From: Collinsella sp. AF02-46-1
GTDB lineage: Bacteria; Actinomycetota; Coriobacteriia; Coriobacteriales; Coriobacteriaceae
Assembly: GCF_003465825.1 (NCBI RefSeq)
Contig: NZ_QSBV01000006.1
Span: 1-64,000, forward strand
Direction of reading: 5' to 3'
DNA length: 64,000 bases
Shown: piece by piece, positions 12,654 through 30,551 of the stretch
Layout: each line of letters opens with the position of its first letter
Position numbering within the stretch: the first letter of the stretch is position 1
Notes under the pieces: generated by a model
Told to the model about the DNA's origin: nothing
What the model saw: the letters and a program-made list of their open reading frames with translations, nothing else
Database searches by the model: none
Program-made: the position numbers and the translations under genes

Positions 12654-13430
12654 ATGGATGCCCAATTAACGATAGTCGACGTAACCGGATCGACCAACGA
12701 TGACCTGCTCGAGGCAGGAAAACAGGGAGCGCCGCACGGCACGGGGCTTGCCGCCCGCGCGCAAACGGCAGGACGCGGCCGACGCGGCCACAAGTGGGAT
12801 TCAACCGCCGGCAACCTGTTGCTCTCGATTGTCCTACGTCCTCGTGTTAATCCCGCCAAGTACTCTGGCCTTGCCGCCGTCAGCGGCCTAGCGGTGCTCG
12901 AGGCGCTCGAGGCGCAAGGTCTTGCTAACGAGATCGGCCTCAAATGGCCCAACGACCTCGTCGCACGAGGACATAAGCTCGGCGGCATCTTGGTCGAGGC
13001 GGCTCGTGACAACGAGGGCAAGCCCTTTGCCGTCTGCGGCATTGGCGTCAATGTGAACTATGTGCCCTCGGAGGTTCCCGATGGCGGCCTGCCGGCAATC
13101 GGTCTGTCAGACCTCAACGAGAATGTTCCCACCGTCGATGTCCTACTCAAGGAGGTCTATCACACCGTCGTAAACGCTGTGGACGCGTGGGCAGATCTGC
13201 TCAACGCCATGGAAGAAGACGCTGGTCCGATCGCGCCCGTCCACGATGATTATGTCGCTCATCTCAATTGGATTGGGGAGCAAGTTATCGCCCGTTCCCC
13301 TGCCGGTGACGAGCTGGCACGTGGCATCTTTCAAACGGTCGATACCTTTGGTCGCGCGTGCATCGAGACGGAAGACGGCTTGCGATCCTTCCATTTTGAG
13401 GAGGCATCGCTGCGTTCCATGGGTAAATAA
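12654..13430 (+). CDS. birA: Biotin--[acetyl-CoA-carboxylase] ligase
   Basis: A 258-residue biotin protein ligase that activates biotin as biotinyl-AMP and attaches it to AccB. It shows GRGRRGHKWDS (biotinyl-AMP binding loop), KWPNDL and KLGGILVE, then a small C-terminal SH3-like domain. The N-terminal winged helix of bifunctional BirA is missing, so this is a monofunctional ligase and probably not a repressor. ATG at 12654 follows AAGGAGGT. It is divergent from the fab operon, sharing a 176-bp spacer that contains the repeat operators. Confidence 0.93.
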   Translation: MDAQLTIVDVTGSTNDDLLEAGKQGAPHGTGLAARAQTAGRGRRGHKWDSTAGNLLLSIVLRPRVNPAKYSGLAAVSGLAVLEALEAQGLANEIGLKWPNDLVARGHKLGGILVEAARDNEGKPFAVCGIGVNVNYVPSEVPDGGLPAIGLSDLNENVPTVDVLLKEVYHTVVNAVDAWADLLNAMEEDAGPIAPVHDDYVAHLNWIGEQVIARSPAGDELARGIFQTVDTFGRACIETEDGLRSFHFEEASLRSMGK

Positions 13431-13492
13431 GGCGCCACAGCCACCCGCTCGACAGCATTACCCGGTCCCCCAAGGCCATCATGCAAAACAAA

Positions 13493-13525
13493 AGAGCCCC
13501 GCTACCGTAATGGCAGCGGGGCTCT
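13493..13525. terminator. Bidirectional terminator between birA and rpsJ
   Basis: AGAGCCCCGCTACC pairs with GGCAGCGGGGCTCT around a short loop. On the minus strand a TTTTGTTTTG tract follows, serving the rpsL-rpsG-fusA-rpsJ operon. The stem also lies downstream of birA. Confidence 0.85.
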
Positions 13526-13546
13526 GTAAGCTATGAGCGATATCGC

Positions 13547-13855
13547 TTAGAGCTTGATGTCGATGTCGACGCCAGCGGGGAGGTCGAGACGCATGAGCGA
13601 ATCAACGGTGCCCGAGGTGGGGTCGAGGATGTCGATGAGGCGCTTGTGGGTGCGCATCTCGAACTGCTCACGGGAGTCCTTGTTCACGTGCGGCGAGCGG
13701 ATAACCGTGTACAGGTTACGCTCGGTGGGCAGGGGGACAGGACCGGAAACGCGAGCACCGGTCTTCTGAGCGGTCTCGACGATGAGCTTCGCGGACTGAT
13801 CGACGACCTCGTGATCATAGCCCTTGAGGCGAATGCGGATCTTCTGGGTAGCCAA
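13547..13855 (-). CDS. rpsJ: 30S ribosomal protein S10
   Basis: A 102-residue S10 ([20 protein letters not shown]), which also serves as NusE in antitermination. Usual length. It follows fusA by 60 bp and is followed at once by a strong terminator, so it is cut off from the rest of the S10 operon (rplC, rplD and so on), which is not in the window. EF-Tu, often found between fusA and rpsJ, is absent. Confidence 0.97.
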
Positions 13856-13915
13856 CTTAAACCTCCAAAGAGTGCGAGAGATGCTCTCGCGGATTACGTA
13901 ACAGGGAGCTCGAAC

Positions 13916-16015
13916 TTAGGCGTTCTTGCTCATGACCTCGTCCACGATGGACTTGGGCGCGGGCTCATAAGAGTCGAACTGCATCGTGTAGGATGCACGG
14001 CCCTGGGTCTGGGAGCGAAGGTCGGTAGCGTAACCGAACATCTCGCCCAGCGGCACCTTGGCACGGATGAGCTTGCTGTTCTTGCGATCCTCCATGCCCT
14101 CGATCTTGCCGCGGCGACCGGAGAGGTTGCCCATAACGTCGCCCATGTACTGCTCGGGGGTCTCGACCTCGACAGCCATGATCGGCTCGAGCAGCTGCGG
14201 ATCGGACTTCTTGAGAGCGTCCTTGATAGCCATGGAACCGGCGATCTTGAAGGCGGCCTCGGAGGAGTCGACCTCGTGGTAAGAACCGTCGAACAGGGTG
14301 ACCTTAACGTCGAGGACCGGGAAGCCGGCGATAACACCGGTGTTCAGGGCCTCCTGGATGCCCTTGTCGATGGACGGGATGTACTCCTTGGGCACGACGC
14401 CGCCGACGATAGCGTTGACGAACTCGTAGCCGAAGCCCTCCTCCATCTTCTCGAGCTTGATGACGGCGTGGCCGTACTGACCGCGACCGCCGGACTGACG
14501 GACGAACTTGCCCTCAGCCTTCTCGACGTCGTGACCGGCGGTCTCGCGGTAGGCAACCTGGGGCTTACCGACGTTAGCGTCAACCTTGAACTCGCGGAGC
14601 AGACGGTCGACGATGATCTCGAGGTGCAGCTCGCCCATGCCGGCGATGATGGTCTGGCCGGTCTCGTGGTTGGTGGACACCTGGAAGGTCGGGTCCTCCT
14701 CGGCGAGCTTGGTCAGAGCCAGGGACATCTTGTCCTGCTCGGCCTTGGTCTTGGGCTCGATGGCAACGTCAATAACGGGCTTAGCGAACTCAATCTTCTC
14801 GAGGACGATCTCCTTGCCCTCGGCGCACAGGGTGTCACCGGTGGTGGAGTTCTTGAAGCCGACGCAAGCGACGATGTCGCCGGCGGCAGCGTCGTCACGG
14901 TCGATACGCTCGGCGGCATTCATCTCGAGGATGCGGCCGAGGCGCTCGCGCTGACCGTTGGAAGCGTTGACAACGTAGGAGCCGGACTCGGCGCGGCCGG
15001 AGTAAACGCGGACGTAGGTGAGCTTACCGACGAACGGGTCGGTCATGATCTTGAAGACCAGGCCGGAGAAGGGCTCGTCGAAGGAAGGATGACGCTGGAT
15101 CTCCTCGCCGGTGTCCGGATCGGTACCGGTGACGGCCTCAACGTCGAGCGGGCTGGGCAGGTAGTCGACGACAGCGTCGAGCAGCTCCTGAACGCCCTTG
15201 TTCTTGTAGGCGGAGCCCACGAAGACGAGGTTGAGCTCGTTGGCCAGAACGCCCTTGCGCAGAGCAGCCTTGAGCTCCTCGACGGTGAAGTCCTCCTCCA
15301 TGAGGATCTTCTCCATGAGCTCGTCATCAAAGCTGGCAGCAGCGTCGAGGAGCTCCTCGCGCTTGGTGGCAGCGATGTCGGCAAACTCAGCCGGGATCTC
15401 GTCCATCGGCTCGGGGTAGGTCATGCCCTTCTCGTCGGCCTTGAAGTCCCATGCAGTCATGGTAACGAGGTCGATGACGCCCCAGAAGTTGTCCTCGGCG
15501 CCCATCGGGACCTGAGCGGCCACGGCGTTGGCGTCGAGACGATCCTTCATGGTCTCGATAGCGTTGAAGAAGTCAGCGCCCACGCGGTCATACTTGTTGA
15601 TGAAGGCGATGCGGGGAACGTTGAAGGTAGAAGCCTGACGCCAAACGGTCTCAGACTGGGGCTGGACGCCGGCAACGGCGTCGAAGACGGCGACAGCGCC
15701 ATCGAGGACGCGCAGGCAGCGCTCGACCTCGGCGGTGAAGTCAACGTGGCCCGGGGTGTCGATGATCTGGATGCGGTAGTCCTTACCGTCCTTGTTCCAG
15801 AAGCACGTAGTGGCAGCGGAGGTAATGGTTACGCCGCGCTCCTGCTCCTGAACCATCCAGTCCATGGTGGCAGCGCCCTCATGGACCTCACCGATCTTGT
15901 GGGTCTTACCGGTGTAGTAAAGAATACGCTCGGTCGTGGTGGTCTTACCGGCATCGATGTGAGCCATGATGCCGATGTTACGGGTATCGGAAAGCTTGTA
16001 CTTAGGCTTAGCCAT
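13916..16015 (-). CDS. fusA: Elongation factor G
   Basis: A 699-residue translocation GTPase. G1 [10 protein letters not shown]2 region [12 protein letters not shown]3 DTPGHVDF and G4 [10 protein letters not shown] are all intact, followed by domains II-V ([11 protein letters not shown] in domain IV). It catalyses ribosome translocation and, with RRF, recycling. It lies 20 bp after rpsG in the str operon. Confidence 0.98.
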
Positions 16016-17082: not shown

Positions 17083-17166
17083 CAGACCACGCCGCCGGGC
17101 GTATCCCAAAATAGCTATATTTCCGCAAAGCCTCCATAAAAGGAATCTCCTCCTGCGCATAAGGGC

Positions 17167-17303
17167 GGATTCCCGGGCCGGGCGGCCCTGGCTTAAGTTT
17201 GCTGCTCTACAGTCCTGGCTCGCACGGAGAGCACATTAAGTGCTCTCCGGCTCGTGCGGAACTCGCGACAAACTTAACCCCGCGCCGCCCGGGCCGGGGA
17301 TCC
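17167..17303. repeat. Large nested palindrome, copy 1
   Basis: Outer arms of 34 nt (17167-17200 and 17270-17303) are mostly complementary, with a few mismatches. They enclose a conserved centre with AGTCCTGGCTCGCACG and a perfect inner hairpin GGAGAGCAC-ATTAA-GTGCTCTCC. A small hairpin (CCGACG/CGTCGG) follows the right arm. It lies between the rpsL promoter and the DUF4179-type gene. Copies 2 and 3 share the centre but have different, compensating arms. Confidence 0.85.
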
Positions 17304-17326
17304 GACGCGCTCGTCGGGGCAACGTT

Positions 17327-17361
17327 ACCTGCCAAAACGGGACAGGTTTGTTTTGGCAGGT
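17327..17361. repeat. CCTGCCA-type hairpin with GGGACAGG loop (B1)
   Basis: ACCTGCCAAAAC and GTTTTGGCAGGT are perfectly complementary 12-mers around GGGACAGGTTT. TTTTATCTG follows on the plus strand. Near-identical elements lie at 19047-19084 (inverted) and 55233-55273. Confidence 0.8.
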
Positions 17362-17374
17362 TTTATCTGGGAAA

Positions 17375-17403
17375 AGGCCGCTTCCCCTAGTGGGAAGCGG
17401 CCT
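17375..17403 (-). terminator. Terminator of the first sigma/DUF4179 pair
   Basis: AGGCCGCTTCCC and GGGAAGCGGCCT pair perfectly around a 5-nt loop. The minus strand continues with TTTTCCC. It is 7 bp past the stop of the upstream gene. Confidence 0.85.
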
Positions 17404-17409
17404 CAAGCC

Positions 17410-18486
17410 TTACGAGTAGACGATGGTAAAGGGTTCTTCCGTTTGAGTCTCCCCTGTTGATGTGCACCTCGTTCCCTCAAGGGTTACCGATACAACCTGA
17501 TCGACATTGATGAGCCTTGTCGGAACCCAGATGTTCTCTCCGCTATTGCGTGCCATCGAAACATAGAAGTTGTACGCCCCTGCGTCGTCATCTTCGATAA
17601 TCTGCTCCGATCCATCCTTGTAGCTGACGGTCAGTTTATGATCAACTGCTTCATAGCCCAGATCATCGATGTGCGTCTGGATGGAAAACGGGCTGATCTC
17701 GAGAGGCGAGTCGTCGGAGCGGAGCTCCTTTGTATCGACGTGCGCTCCGACGTTAAACTCTGGCGTCGATACCTCGATCACCTTCGCATCCTCACCTTTG
17801 CCCTCCGTCCAACTGATATTCCAGGTGACCGCATGTCGTAAATCTCGATCGCGATTCCAAGATGCAAAGTACATCGTGCCGTTAATGACCGTGTCGCTTG
17901 ATGTGTCTTTATCAATGGTGCAGCGTGTATCAGCCCATTCCTCGCCGAAGTTCATGCTGGGTGTACTGACGCCCCCTTCTTCTTCACCATAGAGAACAAG
18001 TTCGCCAAGCTCTGCCGCCGGCTTGTAGTAGTTAACGCCATTCGGATTGGACAATGTAAACGTCACAGCACCGCAACCGTTCTCGTCGATTGCCATCTCA
18101 TGAATGTCGAGCGTATAGCCGTTGCCCTCGACGGACAGATTGACCTTCTGGACTGCACCCTCCAGGCTTTGGGGCGCGATACCATCACCAAACTCTCTGG
18201 TGTAGGTATATTTCGTCCCCGACGAGCCGCCATTTGTCCAGGTAACGGACTCTCCGTTGCCATGGTTTCCCCAGGCAGAGGCAAAATAACTGGAATTGAC
18301 AACAGCGTAGGCGACCCCTCCGGTCGCCAGCACTCCGGCAAGGCATCCGATTACGGCAACATAGAGAGGCTTCGCGTGGCCCTTTCGATGAAGCGGCTCA
18401 CCCGCAGCAGCATCAATAACACGGTCGGCAAGATCGCTATCGGCTTGGATGGACTCGAAGGCCTGCTTGATTTGATTGGATTTCAC
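17410..18486 (-). CDS. DUF4179-like membrane protein, probable anti-sigma factor
   Basis: A 358-residue protein with a cytoplasmic N-terminal segment (about 1-40), one transmembrane helix (about 41-64, LYVAVIGCLAGVLATGGVAY) and a large extracytoplasmic beta-rich domain. The layout matches DUF4179-type proteins encoded next to ECF sigma factors, in which the short inner segment is thought to hold the sigma factor. The start is GTG at 18486 after AGAGGAGGGC, and it overlaps the sigma gene by 50 bp, implying co-translation. Family assignment is by layout and motif feel; anti-sigma activity is inferred from context. Confidence 0.75.
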   Translation of the reverse strand: MKSNQIKQAFESIQADSDLADRVIDAAAGEPLHRKGHAKPLYVAVIGCLAGVLATGGVAYAVVNSSYFASAWGNHGNGESVTWTNGGSSGTKYTYTREFGDGIAPQSLEGAVQKVNLSVEGNGYTLDIHEMAIDENGCGAVTFTLSNPNGVNYYKPAAELGELVLYGEEEGGVSTPSMNFGEEWADTRCTIDKDTSSDTVINGTMYFASWNRDRDLRHAVTWNISWTEGKGEDAKVIEVSTPEFNVGAHVDTKELRSDDSPLEISPFSIQTHIDDLGYEAVDHKLTVSYKDGSEQIIEDDDAGAYNFYVSMARNSGENIWVPTRLINVDQVVSVTLEGTRCTSTGETQTEEPFTIVYS

Positions 18487-18955
18487 GGCCGCCCTCCTCT
18501 AGGATGAATTTGAGCTTCGATCTACCGCGAGCTAAACGCGTTCTAACGGTCGCGGCTGGCACATGCAATAACTCGGCAATCTCTGAAGTCGAGAAGCCCA
18601 GATAGTAATAGAGCACGATGGGGATACGGAATCGTTCCGGAAGCCGCATGACGTCCGACAGGACGGCCTTAGTCTCGTCCTGCGCCGCCAAGAGCGAATC
18701 GGTCAGATTCTCGATATCCTCCACGCGCCTCCACGGTTTTCGAAAGAGAGACTTGCATTCATTGATCGTGACCCGGATAAGCCAGCGGCGAAGATGTTCC
18801 CAACTTTCAAAGTGTCCATCGCTTTTAAGCAACTTAAGAAAGACATCTTGGGCAATATCGTCGGCATCGGCGCGATCGCGCAGGTACGTCAAGGCGATCC
18901 GAAACACGACATCACGGTGGTCTTCAACCGCCTGTCTAAAAGCTTGTTCTTCCAT
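18437..18955 (-). CDS. ECF-type RNA polymerase sigma factor
   Basis: A 172-residue extracytoplasmic-function sigma factor. Region 2 includes DRADADDIAQDVFLKLL (about 28-44) and the WLIRVTINECKS segment; region 4 includes LPERFRIPIVLYYYLGFSTSEIAELL with the HTH ending VRTRLARGRSKLK. It should direct RNA polymerase to a small stress regulon. The ATG at 18955 is chosen because GGGAGGTG precedes it. A TGAAAC-N17-CGTATC promoter upstream suggests autoregulation. The pair interrupts the usual rpoC-rpsL neighbourhood and is flanked by large palindromes. Confidence 0.92.
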   Translation of the reverse strand: MEEQAFRQAVEDHRDVVFRIALTYLRDRADADDIAQDVFLKLLKSDGHFESWEHLRRWLIRVTINECKSLFRKPWRRVEDIENLTDSLLAAQDETKAVLSDVMRLPERFRIPIVLYYYLGFSTSEIAELLHVPAATVRTRLARGRSKLKFILEEGGREIQSNQAGLRVHPSR

Positions 18956-19003
18956 AATCACCTCCCGGTGACGCTGATGGTTCTTGATGAGGTCCTCACC
19001 ATA

Positions 19004-19032
19004 GATACGCTTTGGCCGAACGAAATGTTTCA
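19004..19032 (-). promoter_or_regulatory. ECF-type promoter, probable autoregulation
   Basis: On the minus strand TGAAAC (19027-19032) and CGTATC (19004-19009) are spaced by 17 nt. This matches the TGAAAC/CGTmTA class used by Bacillus ECF factors such as SigW and SigM. It lies about 50 bp before the sigma gene start. Confidence 0.65.
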
Positions 19033-19046
19033 AATCCAAGCAGGAA

Positions 19047-19084
19047 AAACCTACCAAAATAAACCTGTCCCTTATTGGCAAAAG
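19047..19084. repeat. CCTGCCA-type hairpin, inverted copy (B3)
   Basis: On the minus strand the element reads GCCAATAAGGGACAGGTTTA followed by TTTTGGTAGG, nearly identical to the element at 55233-55273. Pairing of the arms is weaker than in the other two copies because one arm has a base change. Confidence 0.7.
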
Positions 19085-19108
19085 GAATCCCCTTCTGTGC
19101 GCGGGGGC

Positions 19109-19247
19109 GGATTCCCGGAACGGGCGGCCCGCTGTTTAAGTTTGCTGCTCTACAGTCCTGCACAAGACGGAAAGCACATTAAGTGCTTTCCTTTGCGTGC
19201 GGAACTCGCGACAAACTTTAACAGCGGGCCGCCCGTTCCGGGAATCC
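19109..19247. repeat. Large nested palindrome, copy 2
   Basis: Arms of 36 nt (19109-19144 and 19212-19247) are complementary with a single mismatch. The centre holds TACAGTCCTGCACAAGACGG, the inner hairpin GGAAAGCAC-ATTAA-GTGCTTTCC and TGCGGAACTCGCGAC, as in copy 1. The same small CCGACG/CGTCGG hairpin and GGGGCAACGTT follow. It lies between the ECF sigma gene and the end of rpoC. Confidence 0.88.
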
Positions 19248-19280
19248 GACGTGCTCGTCGGGGCAACGTTCCTCACCAAA

Positions 19281-19314
19281 AAAGACCCGCTCCCCTGTTG
19301 GGAAGCGGGTCTTT
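19281..19314 (-). terminator. Terminator of rpoB-rpoC
   Basis: AAGACCCGCT and AGCGGGTCTT arms form the stem. On the minus strand a T-rich tract follows (complement of 19277-19283). It is 27 bp beyond the rpoC stop. Confidence 0.85.
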
Positions 19315-19340
19315 GGAAGGGCGGTTAACGTACTAGGAAA

Positions 19341-23816
<4,476 letters not shown>

Positions 23817-23822
23817 AGTCAA

Positions 23823-27314
<3,492 letters not shown>

Positions 27315-27387
27315 CAGGTTTTTCCTCCTTCACGGAAATGCTCGGTGGGTTGGCGAGGCATAGCTTCGCCAGTTATCGCAACCTAAT

Positions 27388-27415
27388 AGTTTATCAGGTA
27401 CCGACCGTTGAGCAA
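27388..27415 (-). promoter_or_regulatory. Promoter of rpoB-rpoC
   Basis: On the minus strand TTGCTC (27410-27415) and TAAACT (27388-27393) are 16 nt apart, giving a leader of roughly 67 nt before rpoB. It means rpoBC has its own promoter. Confidence 0.55.
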
Positions 27416-27576
27416 GAAAAGCCTTGACGCGATTGAGTTTTTGGAGTAGCAAAGTTTTTCGACAGAAAAGATGCAGGTAGATAGGTATGTATCGAACACC
27501 TGTTCATATATTTTATGTGAACGAGACCGCTGGTGCGAGCCGCTGAACGGCGAAATGACGGCGAGGGTTGGTCAGG

Positions 27577-27749
27577 CGGAAAGTGCGTCCCGTTTTGAGG
27601 CCTCAAACTGGGTCGCAGTTTCCGGTTGAGCACTGTTTGGGAAAGCATATCCCGTTCTGAGCCGAAATTCCGGGTCGCAGTTTCCGCTAGGGGTTCCAAC
27701 CGGAAAGCGCGTCCCAGAATTCGACCAAATTGTGGGTCGCACTTTCCGG
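27577..27749. repeat. Three tandem hairpin units upstream of rpoB
   Basis: Units at 27577-27624, 27640-27686 and 27701-27748 repeat with a period of 61-63 bp. Each begins GGAAAG, has a CGTCCC-like (ATCCC in unit 2) left arm, an AT-containing middle that differs between units, and a right arm GGGTCGCA followed by a TTTCCG end. So each unit folds on itself (for example CGGAAAGTGCGTCCC with GGGTCGCAGTTTCCG, two mismatches). The array sits between the galU terminator and the rpoB promoter. Function is unknown. Confidence 0.8.
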
Positions 27750-27775
27750 AGCCAAGCTGTAGCTCGAATAAAAAA

Positions 27776-27803
27776 ACGGGTGCAGACCGAAGTCCGCACC
27801 CGT
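27776..27803 (-). terminator. Terminator of galU
   Basis: ACGGGTGCAGAC and GTCCGCACCCGT pair around a 4-nt loop with one mismatch. The minus strand continues with a run of seven T. It starts 20 bp beyond the galU stop. Confidence 0.88.
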
Positions 27804-27823
27804 AAATGTCGATGCCCGAAGGC

Positions 27824-28732
27824 TTACTTGCGCATCAATCCGCCGCGCTCGTCGATGGCGTCCCAGAAGGCATCGGCAAAGCGGGGGTCGTTTGCAGCCA
27901 TGAGGGCGTTAGTGGCCATCCAACCAGAGGGAGTGCCAGTGTCGTAGCCCGACAGCGGGTCGATGACGACGGCGTACATGGCCTCGCGGTCGAGCGAACG
28001 GGCCATGGCGTCGGTGAGCTGGATCTCGCCGCCCTTGCCGGCCTGCTGATCTGCCAGCAAGTCCATGACCAGCGGGCTCAGCAGGTAGCGACCGACGATG
28101 TACAGGTTGGACGGAGCAGCCTCGGGAGCGGGCTTCTCAACCAGACCGCCGATACGCCAGACAGCGCCCGGCTCGGCATCGGCAACGTCCTCGGCGCCCT
28201 CGAGCGAACCGACGCGCTCGCCGGCGATAACACCGTAGCGGCTGACTTCCTCGGGCGAGCAAGCAGCGACGGCGATAACCGAAGCGCCACCGTGCTCCTT
28301 GGAAACGGCGAGCATCTTGTCGCAGATGTCGCGGTTAGGCACAACGTAGTCGCCCAGAAGAACCAGGAAGTTCTCCCCTGCCACGGCGTCGGCAGCAGAG
28401 CGAATGGCATGGCCGAGGCCCTTGGGCTCGTACTGATAACGGAAGTCGACCGGCATACCGCCAGCGTGGGCGACGGCATCGGCATAGGCGTTCTTGCCGC
28501 GCTCGCGCAGCAGGTTCTCGAGCGAACGGTCGGGCTGGAAGTAGTTCAGCAGCTCGGGCTTGCCGGGCGAGGTAACGATGATGGCGTCGTCGACCTCCTC
28601 GGGGTCGAGTGCCTCCTCGACGACATACTGGATGACCGGCTTGTCGAGCACCGGCAGCATCTCTTTGGGCGTGCACTTGGTGCCAGGCAGAAAACGCGTG
28701 CCAAGACCGGCGGCGGGGATGATTGCCTTCAT
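27824..28732 (-). CDS. galU: UTP--glucose-1-phosphate uridylyltransferase
   Basis: A 302-residue nucleotidyltransferase making UDP-glucose for cell-surface glycans and galactose use. The N-terminal MKAIIPAAGLGTRFLPGTK nucleotide loop, KEMLPVLDKP, and GLVEKP are diagnostic of GalU. Start chosen at MKAIIPAAG, the universal beginning, with AAAGGATC upstream. It stands alone between rplL and rpoB with its own promoter and terminator, an unusual position for the gene. Confidence 0.95.
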   Translation of the reverse strand: MKAIIPAAGLGTRFLPGTKCTPKEMLPVLDKPVIQYVVEEALDPEEVDDAIIVTSPGKPELLNYFQPDRSLENLLRERGKNAYADAVAHAGGMPVDFRYQYEPKGLGHAIRSAADAVAGENFLVLLGDYVVPNRDICDKMLAVSKEHGGASVIAVAACSPEEVSRYGVIAGERVGSLEGAEDVADAEPGAVWRIGGLVEKPAPEAAPSNLYIVGRYLLSPLVMDLLADQQAGKGGEIQLTDAMARSLDREAMYAVVIDPLSGYDTGTPSGWMATNALMAANDPRFADAFWDAIDERGGLMRK

Positions 28733-28828
28733 GTTATTCAAAGATCCTTTCGCAGGCGCAAAAGCGCCCCGTGCGTGCGGCGCACAGCCGCAGACCAAAT
28801 TGCGATACCCAAGCATCTTACCGCTGGA

Positions 28829-28856
28829 ACTATATGTCGCTACAAGGCAGAGACAA
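28829..28856 (-). promoter_or_regulatory. Promoter of galU
   Basis: On the minus strand TTGTCT (28851-28856) and TATAGT (28829-28834) are spaced by 16 nt. The predicted leader is about 90 nt. I see nothing else in the galU-rplL spacer apart from this promoter and the rplL terminator. Confidence 0.65.
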
Positions 28857-28990
28857 TTCTTCAGCAGGTCAACGCAAATTATTGCTCGAATGGTGCAATT
28901 TTATTGCCCAACGGCAGGGCACCCGATGCGACGCAAATCACAGAACATGGCAGTTTGAGCAACCGATGTCGGGGAACCGAAAAACAAAAA

Positions 28991-29019
28991 AGACGGGGCT
29001 CGCAATGCGAACCCCGTCT
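28991..29019 (-). terminator. Terminator of rplJ-rplL
   Basis: AGACGGGG and CCCCGTCT arms with an inner TCGC/GCGA pairing form the stem. The minus strand continues TTTTTTGTTTT. It ends rplJL transcription before galU, so rpoBC is not fed from rplJL. Confidence 0.88.
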
Positions 29020-29046
29020 GCAAAGGAATCTGGCGAGAAAGCCTGA

Positions 29047-29424
29047 TTACTTGAGGGTGACAGCAGCGCCAGCAGCCTCGAGCTTCTCCTTGGCAGCCTC
29101 GGCGTCCTCCTTCTTGGCACCCTCGAGAACAGCCTTGGGAGCGCCCTCGACGACCTCCTTGGCCTCCTTCAGGCCAAGGTTGGTGAGCTCACGGACGGCC
29201 TTGATGACCTGGATCTTGTTGTCGCCGAAGCCCTCGAGCACGACGTCAAACTCGGTCTTCTCCTCGGCCTCAGCAGCGCCAGCAGCGGGAGCGGCGACAA
29301 CAGCGGCAGGAGCAGCGGCGGAAACGCCGAAGGTGTCCTCGATAGCCTTAACGAGCTCGGAAGCCTCGAGAAGGGTCATTTCCTTAAGAGCATCGATGAT
29401 CTCATCGGTGGTAAGCTTAGCCAT
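29047..29424 (-). CDS. rplL: 50S ribosomal protein L7/L12
   Basis: A 125-residue stalk protein with an N-terminal dimerisation domain ([20 protein letters not shown]), an Ala-rich hinge (about 36-53) and the C-terminal factor-binding domain ending AAGAAVTLK. It recruits translational GTPases such as EF-G. The start MAKLTTDEI follows AAAGGACTTAGAA. It is 102 bp downstream of rplJ. Confidence 0.97.
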
Positions 29425-29526
29425 TTCTAAGTCCTTTCGGTTTCCGTGCGGATGCACGGAGATCAGTTAAAACACGGCGCGAATGCGCCAGGGGTGCGGC
29501 GTTGCCGCCGCGGGTGAAAACAGCAA

Positions 29527-30048
29527 CTAGGCTGCCTTCTGCTCGGAGACCTGCTGGATCGAACGAGCGAGACCAGAGGAAACGCCGTTGACGCAGACAG
29601 CGATGTCGCGAGCGAAACCGGAGATGAGACCGGCGATCTGGCCGAGAAGCTGATCCTTGGTGGGCAGCTCGGCGATAGCCTTAACATCATCAGCGGAAAC
29701 GGCCTTGCCGTCGGAGATACCGCCCTTGATCTCAAGGACGCCCTTGGACTTAGCGGAGAAGTCCTTAAGGGCCTTAGCGGCCTCGACCGGCTCGGACTCG
29801 TAGAACACATAAGCGACGGGGCCGGCGAGGATCTCGTCGAGCTCGGGCTGCTCCTGGTTCTTGAGAGCGATCTTGACCAGGTTGTTCTTGTAGACCTTCA
29901 TCTCGGCGCCGCACTCGCGAAGCTGATGACGCAGCTCCTGAGCCTGCTTAACCGTCAGACCGTTGTAGTTGACGACGAACAGACCGGCGTTCTCGGCGAT
30001 ACGGGACTCGATCTCTGCAACCTTGTCGATTTTGTACTGCTGGGGCAT
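29527..30048 (-). CDS. rplJ: 50S ribosomal protein L10
   Basis: A 173-residue L10, the base of the ribosomal stalk that binds L7/L12 dimers through its C-terminal helix. The N-terminal PQQYKIDKVAEIESRIAENAG and VVNYNGLTVKQAQELR match the family. In other bacteria L10 with L7/L12 represses its own mRNA through a structured leader; the upstream spacer here has a matching attenuator-like hairpin. The ATG follows GAGGAGGTGTAATTC. Confidence 0.97.
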   Translation of the reverse strand: MPQQYKIDKVAEIESRIAENAGLFVVNYNGLTVKQAQELRHQLRECGAEMKVYKNNLVKIALKNQEQPELDEILAGPVAYVFYESEPVEAAKALKDFSAKSKGVLEIKGGISDGKAVSADDVKAIAELPTKDQLLGQIAGLISGFARDIAVCVNGVSSGLARSIQQVSEQKAA

Positions 30049-30054
30049 GAATTA

Positions 30055-30260
30055 CACCTCCTCGAATTCTTTCCGGGCACGGTCCGCCACAAGGACGTGA
30101 CGGGGGCATGTCCAAAAAGAAAGCCCCCGCGCTGCATGAGCGACGGGGGCGAGAAGACATATCTACTCGACCACCTCGGCTGGCGGGATATCCCATTAAG
30201 CTCGCGGGCGATGCCCGTTTGCACCGGCTGTCTCTGGCAGCGGATTCGTGCATGAACCGA
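30055..30260 (-). promoter_or_regulatory. Probable ribosomal L10 leader with attenuator hairpin
   Basis: About 200 nt precede rplJ. At 30123-30150 the minus strand forms GCCCCCG...CGGGGGC followed by TTTCTTTTT (complement of 30114-30122), a classic intrinsic terminator placed before the gene rather than after it. A second GCCCCCG copy lies at 30100-30106 (as CGGGGGC on the plus strand) and could pair alternatively. This fits an L10-leader attenuator; the exact L10-binding fold was not verified. Confidence 0.6.
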
Positions 30261-30327
30261 AAGTATTATGGCGGGGACCCCGGCGTCGGTCAACGGGCGC
30301 GAGGATTCGTACACAAACCCTGCATAC

Positions 30328-30456
30328 GCTCCGGTCCGAGGGGCCGGGTTGAGATTTTCGCTCGGTCAAGTCCTGGCTCGCACGAAGAGCACATTAAGTG
30401 CTCTTCGGCTCGTGCGGAATCTACGAAAATCTCAACCCGGCCCCTCGGACCGGAGC
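30328..30456. repeat. Large nested palindrome, copy 3
   Basis: Arms of 33 nt (30328-30360 and 30424-30456) are perfectly complementary, yet their sequence is unrelated to copies 1 and 2. The centre again has AAGTCCTGGCTCGCACG, the inner hairpin CGAAGAGCAC-ATTAA-GTGCTCTTCG and CGTGCGGAA. It lies between the rplJ leader and the end of the aminotransferase gene. No coding signal is seen across it. Confidence 0.9.
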
Positions 30457-30551
30457 TGCGGTAACTTTGCTGCGAATCCTCGTGTCCGTTGAGCGACGTG
30501 CCCCACTCATAATGCTTGGGTCGGTGGGCTGATGTGTTGCATCCCTGAGGG

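Follow-up and report, generated by a model that had tools for sequence, protein, structure and literature searches.

What are the three large nested palindromes of Collinsella sp. AF02-46-1, which lie in the 64,000-nucleotide stretch analysed here (contig NZ_QSBV01000006.1, positions 1 to 64,000; called the window throughout)? An earlier note on this DNA had described them as copies of one structure with covarying arms and had offered three explanations, a structured RNA, a cruciform protein-binding site, or a non-autonomous element moved by a recombinase. The reading preferred here, to which we assign a probability of roughly 0.5, is that the palindromes are old, class-wide, chromosomal, non-autonomous small mobile DNA elements of the Coriobacteriia, whose head is recognised as a hairpin.

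A conserved head inside locus-specific arms

In the following, P1 denotes the long arm pair, which is variable, P0 a pair outside it, and the head everything inside P1. The T strand is the strand that reads GTTCCGCAC...AGGACTG; in the window this is the minus strand, as for the neighbouring genes. Copy 1 (17166..17304) is located 5' of rpsL, beyond a DUF4179-like gene, and its 36-nt arms (17166-17201 and 17269-17304) are 86% complementary and enclose a 67-nt head with its core at 17212-17262. Copy 2 (19108..19248) occupies the intergenic region of rpoC and a sigma-factor gene and has 37-nt arms (19108-19144 and 19212-19248; 97% complementary) around a head of 67 nt (core 19155-19205). In copy 3 (30328..30456), between an aminotransferase gene and rplJ, the 33-nt arms (30328-30360 and 30424-30456) are 100% complementary, the head comprises 63 nt (core 30370-30420), and a P0 pair spanning 30284..30498 is added outside (30284-30309 with 30473-30498; 88% complementary), which by eye differs among orthologues, too. 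The three palindromes of the earlier note, with their self-complementary arms, core words and apical-stem variants, are thus all present as described. The cores make up one 83-nt direct-repeat family (at 17193, 19136 and 30351; 86% and 75% identity to copy 1). Over approximately 200 bp including flanks (17138..17337 and 19080..19281; direct-repeat families D1, D11 and D19), copies 1 and 2 are alike and therefore represent one duplicated unit.

The same architecture recurs across the family. Self-complementary, locus-specific arms surround a head of 63-67 nt, in which GTTCCGCAC and AGGACTG flank an apical stem, and the class-wide head consensus reads GC.G.AG.TTCC.GCA.CGagccG[apical stem]CGtgcGaG.CA.GGAC.TG.ccG.AGC. 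Inner modules come in three kinds, each with its matching partner, GAGCC/GCGAGC, GCAAA/UUGCGC and GAACA/CGUGAGC, and the module at one locus may differ between strains (L103 versus L130; L091 versus L119). P1 reaches at least 12 bp, the cut-off applied, in 163 of 166 distinct elements, with a median of 29 bp and a maximum of 49. Watson-Crick pairs account for 4229 of 4404 internal P1 pairs (96%) and for all 1609 scored apical pairs, a figure that is favoured because the apical stem was picked as the best-scoring one. The letters of the head are conserved class-wide. Variant heads of the type GTTCCGCAGC...GCGAGGACTG, with the apical stem absent or different, were seen at L279, L287, L288, L289 and L341 (hisH of genome G171). 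At L425 (genome G011, around 1315-1500) an element breaks off at the apical loop, where unrelated DNA with a hairpin of its own takes the place of the second half; this break would fit cleavage at the hairpin tip, in a single case.

Further copies in related genomes, on which the earlier note had staked its case, are plentiful. With at most one mismatch, AGCACATTAAGTGCT has 15-17 matches in each of four related genomes and none in a reversed control, which excludes chance. A 211-bp query including copy 1 found matches in 20 of 39 relatives, all of one genus. By its named RpoC neighbours, the window belongs to the Collinsella aerofaciens group. The exact pattern TTCCGCACG-N14..44-AGGACT occurs 16-27 times per genome in 13 of 24 Collinsella genomes and 0-8 times in the other 11; counts of 1-2 may be due to chance, because the reversed control gave 7 matches over the 39 genomes. 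In the 15 genomes of other genera this pattern, which is Collinsella-like, matched once, without the element's stem, and it missed copies that a covariance model later found there (genome G036). The model, built from 42 copies and used at E<=1e-3, matches 120 of 246 Coriobacteriia genomes and 46 of 110 genera, including 34 genomes of the same genus; G041 has no match among the genomes listed. In the other-genus loci read individually, a minority of the class-level matches, the head letters are identical, so these are not just any hairpins. No element was detected in viral contigs, searched with one exact pattern, or in phage records, and the only plasmid record with a match is a 0.9-Mb Collinsella replicon (899,693 bp). 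Rfam gave no match in the window at gathering scores, and at lax E-values only sub-threshold matches at the element in copies 1 and 2 and 12 other loci. The older Collinsella-1 motif (RF01700; PMC2864571) found no match in the Rfam scans of the window and of copies 1 and 2.

Paired change in the arms and the case for RNA

Covariation clearly exceeds the controls, the second point that had been fixed beforehand. In the 42-sequence alignment 301 cells changed on both sides, compared to 80.8 (sd 7.3) in shuffles and 43-82 in slid structures, and the class-wide alignment of 95 rows, fitted to the covariance model, contains 872 such cells against 251.8 (sd 15.0) in shuffles. Two weaker measures stand out hardly or not at all from the shuffles. 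Double changes affect 21 pairs versus 19.0 in the 42 sequences (39 of 500 shuffles as high) and 24 versus 20.6 class-wide (0 of 500); further pair types number 54 versus 56.7 (449 of 500) and 81 versus 77.8 (61 of 500), respectively.

How the arms change can be followed at orthologous loci, where the comparison covered 32 of 34 rows (the pattern missed the element-bearing L415 and L420). Paired substitutions with no intermediate among the strains seen occur at the L105 site (GAGAGT/GAGAGC), the L104 site (GGACTG/GGACCG) and the copy-3 site (GGCCGGG/GGCCAGG). Mismatches confined to a single arm also exist (L405, L062, L064, L066, L070, L072). Whole arm sets are replaced as well. The L104 site carries three unrelated sets in different strains, each 31-33 bp long with 0-1 mismatch, next to a nearly identical left flank; the L105 site of G010 and G012 holds a wholly different hairpin; and the orthologues of copy 3 have other arms. 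Orthologues of copy 1 show, by eye, arm blocks and recombinants with mismatched arms.

A mobile DNA element could account for these patterns as follows. The head, with its fixed-sequence internal loops and short apical stem, would be the recognised part, read most likely in the form of a DNA hairpin or cruciform by a putative protein that moves or binds it; such movement would occur in trans. In the arms, complementarity would be the sole requirement and the constraint on sequence would be gone. Template switching or hairpin repair during replication may copy a change from one arm to the other, and the two arms would then diverge together until those of different sites bear no relation to one another. 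Template switching is a known process that makes or keeps perfect stems in single copying events, and the hairpins described in PMC8794818 resemble this family in having paired changes without intermediates; that work concerns RNA genes, whereas the arms here share no sequence and reach 49 bp. In a variant that we consider unlikely, only the head would be mobile and recognised, and the inverted arms would be self-built from neighbouring DNA by template switching on or after insertion. Each copy would then gain site-specific matched arms, replaceable as a unit at the same site.

The main rival, possible on present data and yet less probable than the mobile element, is a structured RNA transcribed from the T strand. 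This putative RNA would be a leader, a 3'-UTR element or a small RNA whose head binds a protein or ligand, and P1 would serve stability or processing by RNase III. It is a live alternative because the unpaired bases of the head are conserved class-wide along with the paired ones, and because several copies, directly before a start codon on the T strand, form most of the 5' leader; the inner modules exchanged as matched pairs and the strong covariation would suit it equally well. However, one-sided steps in the arms are rare and G-U pairs are few. After clustering by arm similarity (59 groups), the T strand has 51 G-U pairs and its mirror 36 (p=0.13). G-U pairs being so scarce and neither strand significantly preferred, the evidence for RNA pairing over DNA complementarity is weak at best: the latter is kept, the former not clearly so.

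Genome context also argues against an RNA. Gene positions around the copies are approximate, as they come from our own gene caller, and some calls inside genes are spurious frames. Copies stand in all orientations relative to genes: neighbours are arranged '> >' in 12, '> <' in 8, '< <' in 4 and '< >' in 1 of 25 cases in genome G014, and in 9, 5, 6 and 1 of 21 cases, in the same order, in G007. In G014, 12 of the 25 T-3' neighbours are convergent gene ends. A sigma-70 promoter in the T-5' flank was rejected (mean 4.3 versus 4.47 shuffled; 49 flanks including orthologues), as was a role as valS leader, since outside the C. aerofaciens group an element lies within about 1.5 kb in only 1 of 29 valS loci; this test used strict finders, which diverged copies could escape. 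By eye, and uncounted, leuS and thrB are found directly 3' of some copies in other genera.

The same placements bear on a special transcription terminator or insulator near gene boundaries, which we regard as the least probable of the explanations considered. In its favour, the distance from the T-3' side to the next gene boundary, be it a start or a stop, is 47-70 nt for 14 of the 25 G014 copies, and only 1 of the 25 is placed between divergent genes. A terminator would not need a conserved tip, however; by eye, no T-run follows the arms in the printed flanks, and in many flanks ordinary hairpin-plus-T terminators already stand upstream.

Dispersal, empty sites and old positions

Outside Collinsella some copies sit within genes. 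Four open frames continue through the element in Eggerthellaceae-type genomes and Enorma, namely those of hisH (L306), tsaB (L308), an OPT transporter gene (L337) and the gene of a protein without an NCBIfam match (L319); for hisH and the OPT transporter, the family profile is matched on either side of the element. One of these four in-frame copies has the orientation of its gene and three have the opposite one and are antisense on the T strand, a further point against a structured RNA. Six sites of genome G108 were compared with three congeners (G222, G093 and G171), L320 without result. The hisH site is empty in G222 and G093, where the diverged sequence holds neither arm by eye, and in G171 it contains a shorter head between different arms. 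All three congeners are empty at L321, the L322 site is empty in two and bears another subtype in G171, and at L319 and L326 the element is absent from all three. The G108 query also contains a separate repeat at 687-760 (GGATCCTTCGACTC...CTCAGGATGACA), which occurs many times over in the three congeners.

Presence and absence can be traced in the window, too. Copy 2 is present in the window, L138 and L142, and absent from ten loci with the same gene order (L133, L135, L136, L137, L139, L141, L143, L144, L145 and L148); of the other loci, the intergenic region differs in L131 and L132, the gene pair is missing from L134, L146 and L147, and L140 is cut off. Of the 14 loci compared with the window, 13 have copy 1, with the single element of L146 counted, and L132 lacks it. 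That lone element lies directly between rpoC and rpsL, so that in the window the sigma-factor and DUF4179-like gene pair (17410-19081) stands between two direct copies. The pair is missing from L146, L134 and L147, where the distance from rpoC to rpsL is smaller, and it may have entered between two element copies. The copy-3 locus of G003, a candidate empty site, was rejected as such: by eye, a deletion bordered on both sides by GCCAGG has removed the element except for one arm.

Of the three explanations first offered, the non-autonomous element is therefore best supported, because copies are dispersed, some are in frame and several are absent in congeners; the structured RNA is weakened, and no recombinase was identified in the search described below. 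An improbable alternative is a cruciform or duplex site that binds a nucleoid, repair or replication protein; such a site would have spread by duplication without being mobile itself. It would agree with intergenic copies at shared positions that are chromosomal only in the collections searched. In-frame insertions and absences in congeners count against such a site, as does a copy number that ranges very unevenly from 0 to 27 within one genus. Sequence alone cannot separate a cruciform protein-binding site from a mobile element.

Several observations weigh against a mobile element. No moving enzyme was found, with Y1 as the only transposase type sought and 30 fetched Y1 loci, a part of all Y1 matches, as the material. 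Repetitive extragenic palindromic (REP) sequences and REPINs are paired with REP-associated tyrosine transposases (RAYTs; Y1). Such a partnership was rejected here: the core lies within about 1.5 kb in 0 of the 30 loci, and copy number does not track the presence of Y1. Of 29 genomes of the genus, 26 have Y1 matches; G006 has none and yet 12 covariance-model matches. The only case of a target duplication is the 7-bp direct repeat ATCATTC at L321. A general flank test was slightly over its control (5.26 versus 4.80, sd 0.17; 4.79 versus 4.49, sd 0.21), a small excess that proves nothing. The unclustered G-U count, 74 on the T strand versus 40 on the mirror, and the conserved unpaired bases of the head would also fit RNA. 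Finally, element positions in the C. aerofaciens group are old. For 22 of 25 positions in G014, the loci fetched include an orthologue that carries an element, which is not a rate because loci were fetched for holding elements. As to the other three positions, the alignment runs through the element in 11 of 12 genomes searched at the L104 site and in 3 of 12 at the L106 site; the L105 site is occupied in most genomes and rearranged in G011. Since positions are largely shared in this group, movement there is slow or past.

No autonomous element, in which a gene would separate the two halves of the head, was seen among the fetched loci; the 15 matches of that search were mostly whole elements that the strict pattern had missed. 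Suspected boxes in the Collinsella flanks showed no positional information. In 17 of 34 Eggerthellaceae-type copies (L298-L333), GCAGGT stands 1-8 nt beyond the T-3' arm, and in 18 of 34 it is within 60 nt; this box occurs on the other side in 8 of 34, and in the Collinsella set in 1 of 47.

Other repeats occur in the window, too. An inverted pair of a third repeat, of the ACCTACCAAAATAAACCTGTCCC type, is found at 17330-17369 and 19041-19080 (85% complementary) and recurs beside other elements, for example at L116, L126 and L133. A second palindromic repeat (GGAAAGTGCGTCCC...GGGTCGCAGTTTCCG) at 27569-27748 consists of three direct copies with 62-bp spacing, and the L106 flank contains similar units. 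A C. aerofaciens strain (L398; NZ_OY725717.1, locus 12835-14127) has a gene for an IS30-family transposase between a uridylyltransferase gene and rplL; the corresponding position in the window is without it.

Relation to known repeats and biological meaning

By definition, miniature inverted-repeat transposable elements (MITEs) have a parent transposase and end in conserved terminal inverted repeats. Such repeats are not found in this family, as outer arms and flanks vary by locus and Collinsella flank positions hold at most 0.38 bits. MITEs such as Correia elements, BOX and ERIC (PMC10969869) are likewise small, non-autonomous, palindromic and dispersed, but their ends are conserved, whereas here the ends are variable and the centre is fixed. 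REP and REPIN sequences are also chromosomal, mostly intergenic hairpins in many copies; REPs measure 20-40 bp and have a tag at one end, in contrast to the 100-150 bp and the conserved head of this family. Rickettsia palindromic elements, according to PMC10969869, resemble the family by description in being palindromic, dispersed, about 150 bp long and in frame within protein genes. Those elements have a conserved peptide-coding sequence, whereas the present ones combine a conserved tip with free arms and are intergenic in most of the copies read. The nearest kinds are Rickettsia palindromic elements and REPs, with an opposite architecture.

No paper on such a repeat was found in the open full-text literature, which was the scope of the search, and a term search of two papers on palindromic repeats (PMC3733652 and PMC12306157) found no mention of Collinsella or Coriobacteria. 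PMC8040213 reports a 51-bp Collinsella candidate, HMP2_254, located 5' of L7/L12. The head core described here also measures 51 nt, and overlap is possible, judging by description only.

Common bacteria of the human gut carry this class-wide repeat, for which Rfam has no entry. Its stems covary no less strongly than those of an RNA and yet show few of the one-sided steps expected from RNA evolution, and it therefore offers a natural test of the question whether RNA covariation could be mimicked by template switching on its own. The family also points to a putative hairpin-recognising protein in the Coriobacteriia.

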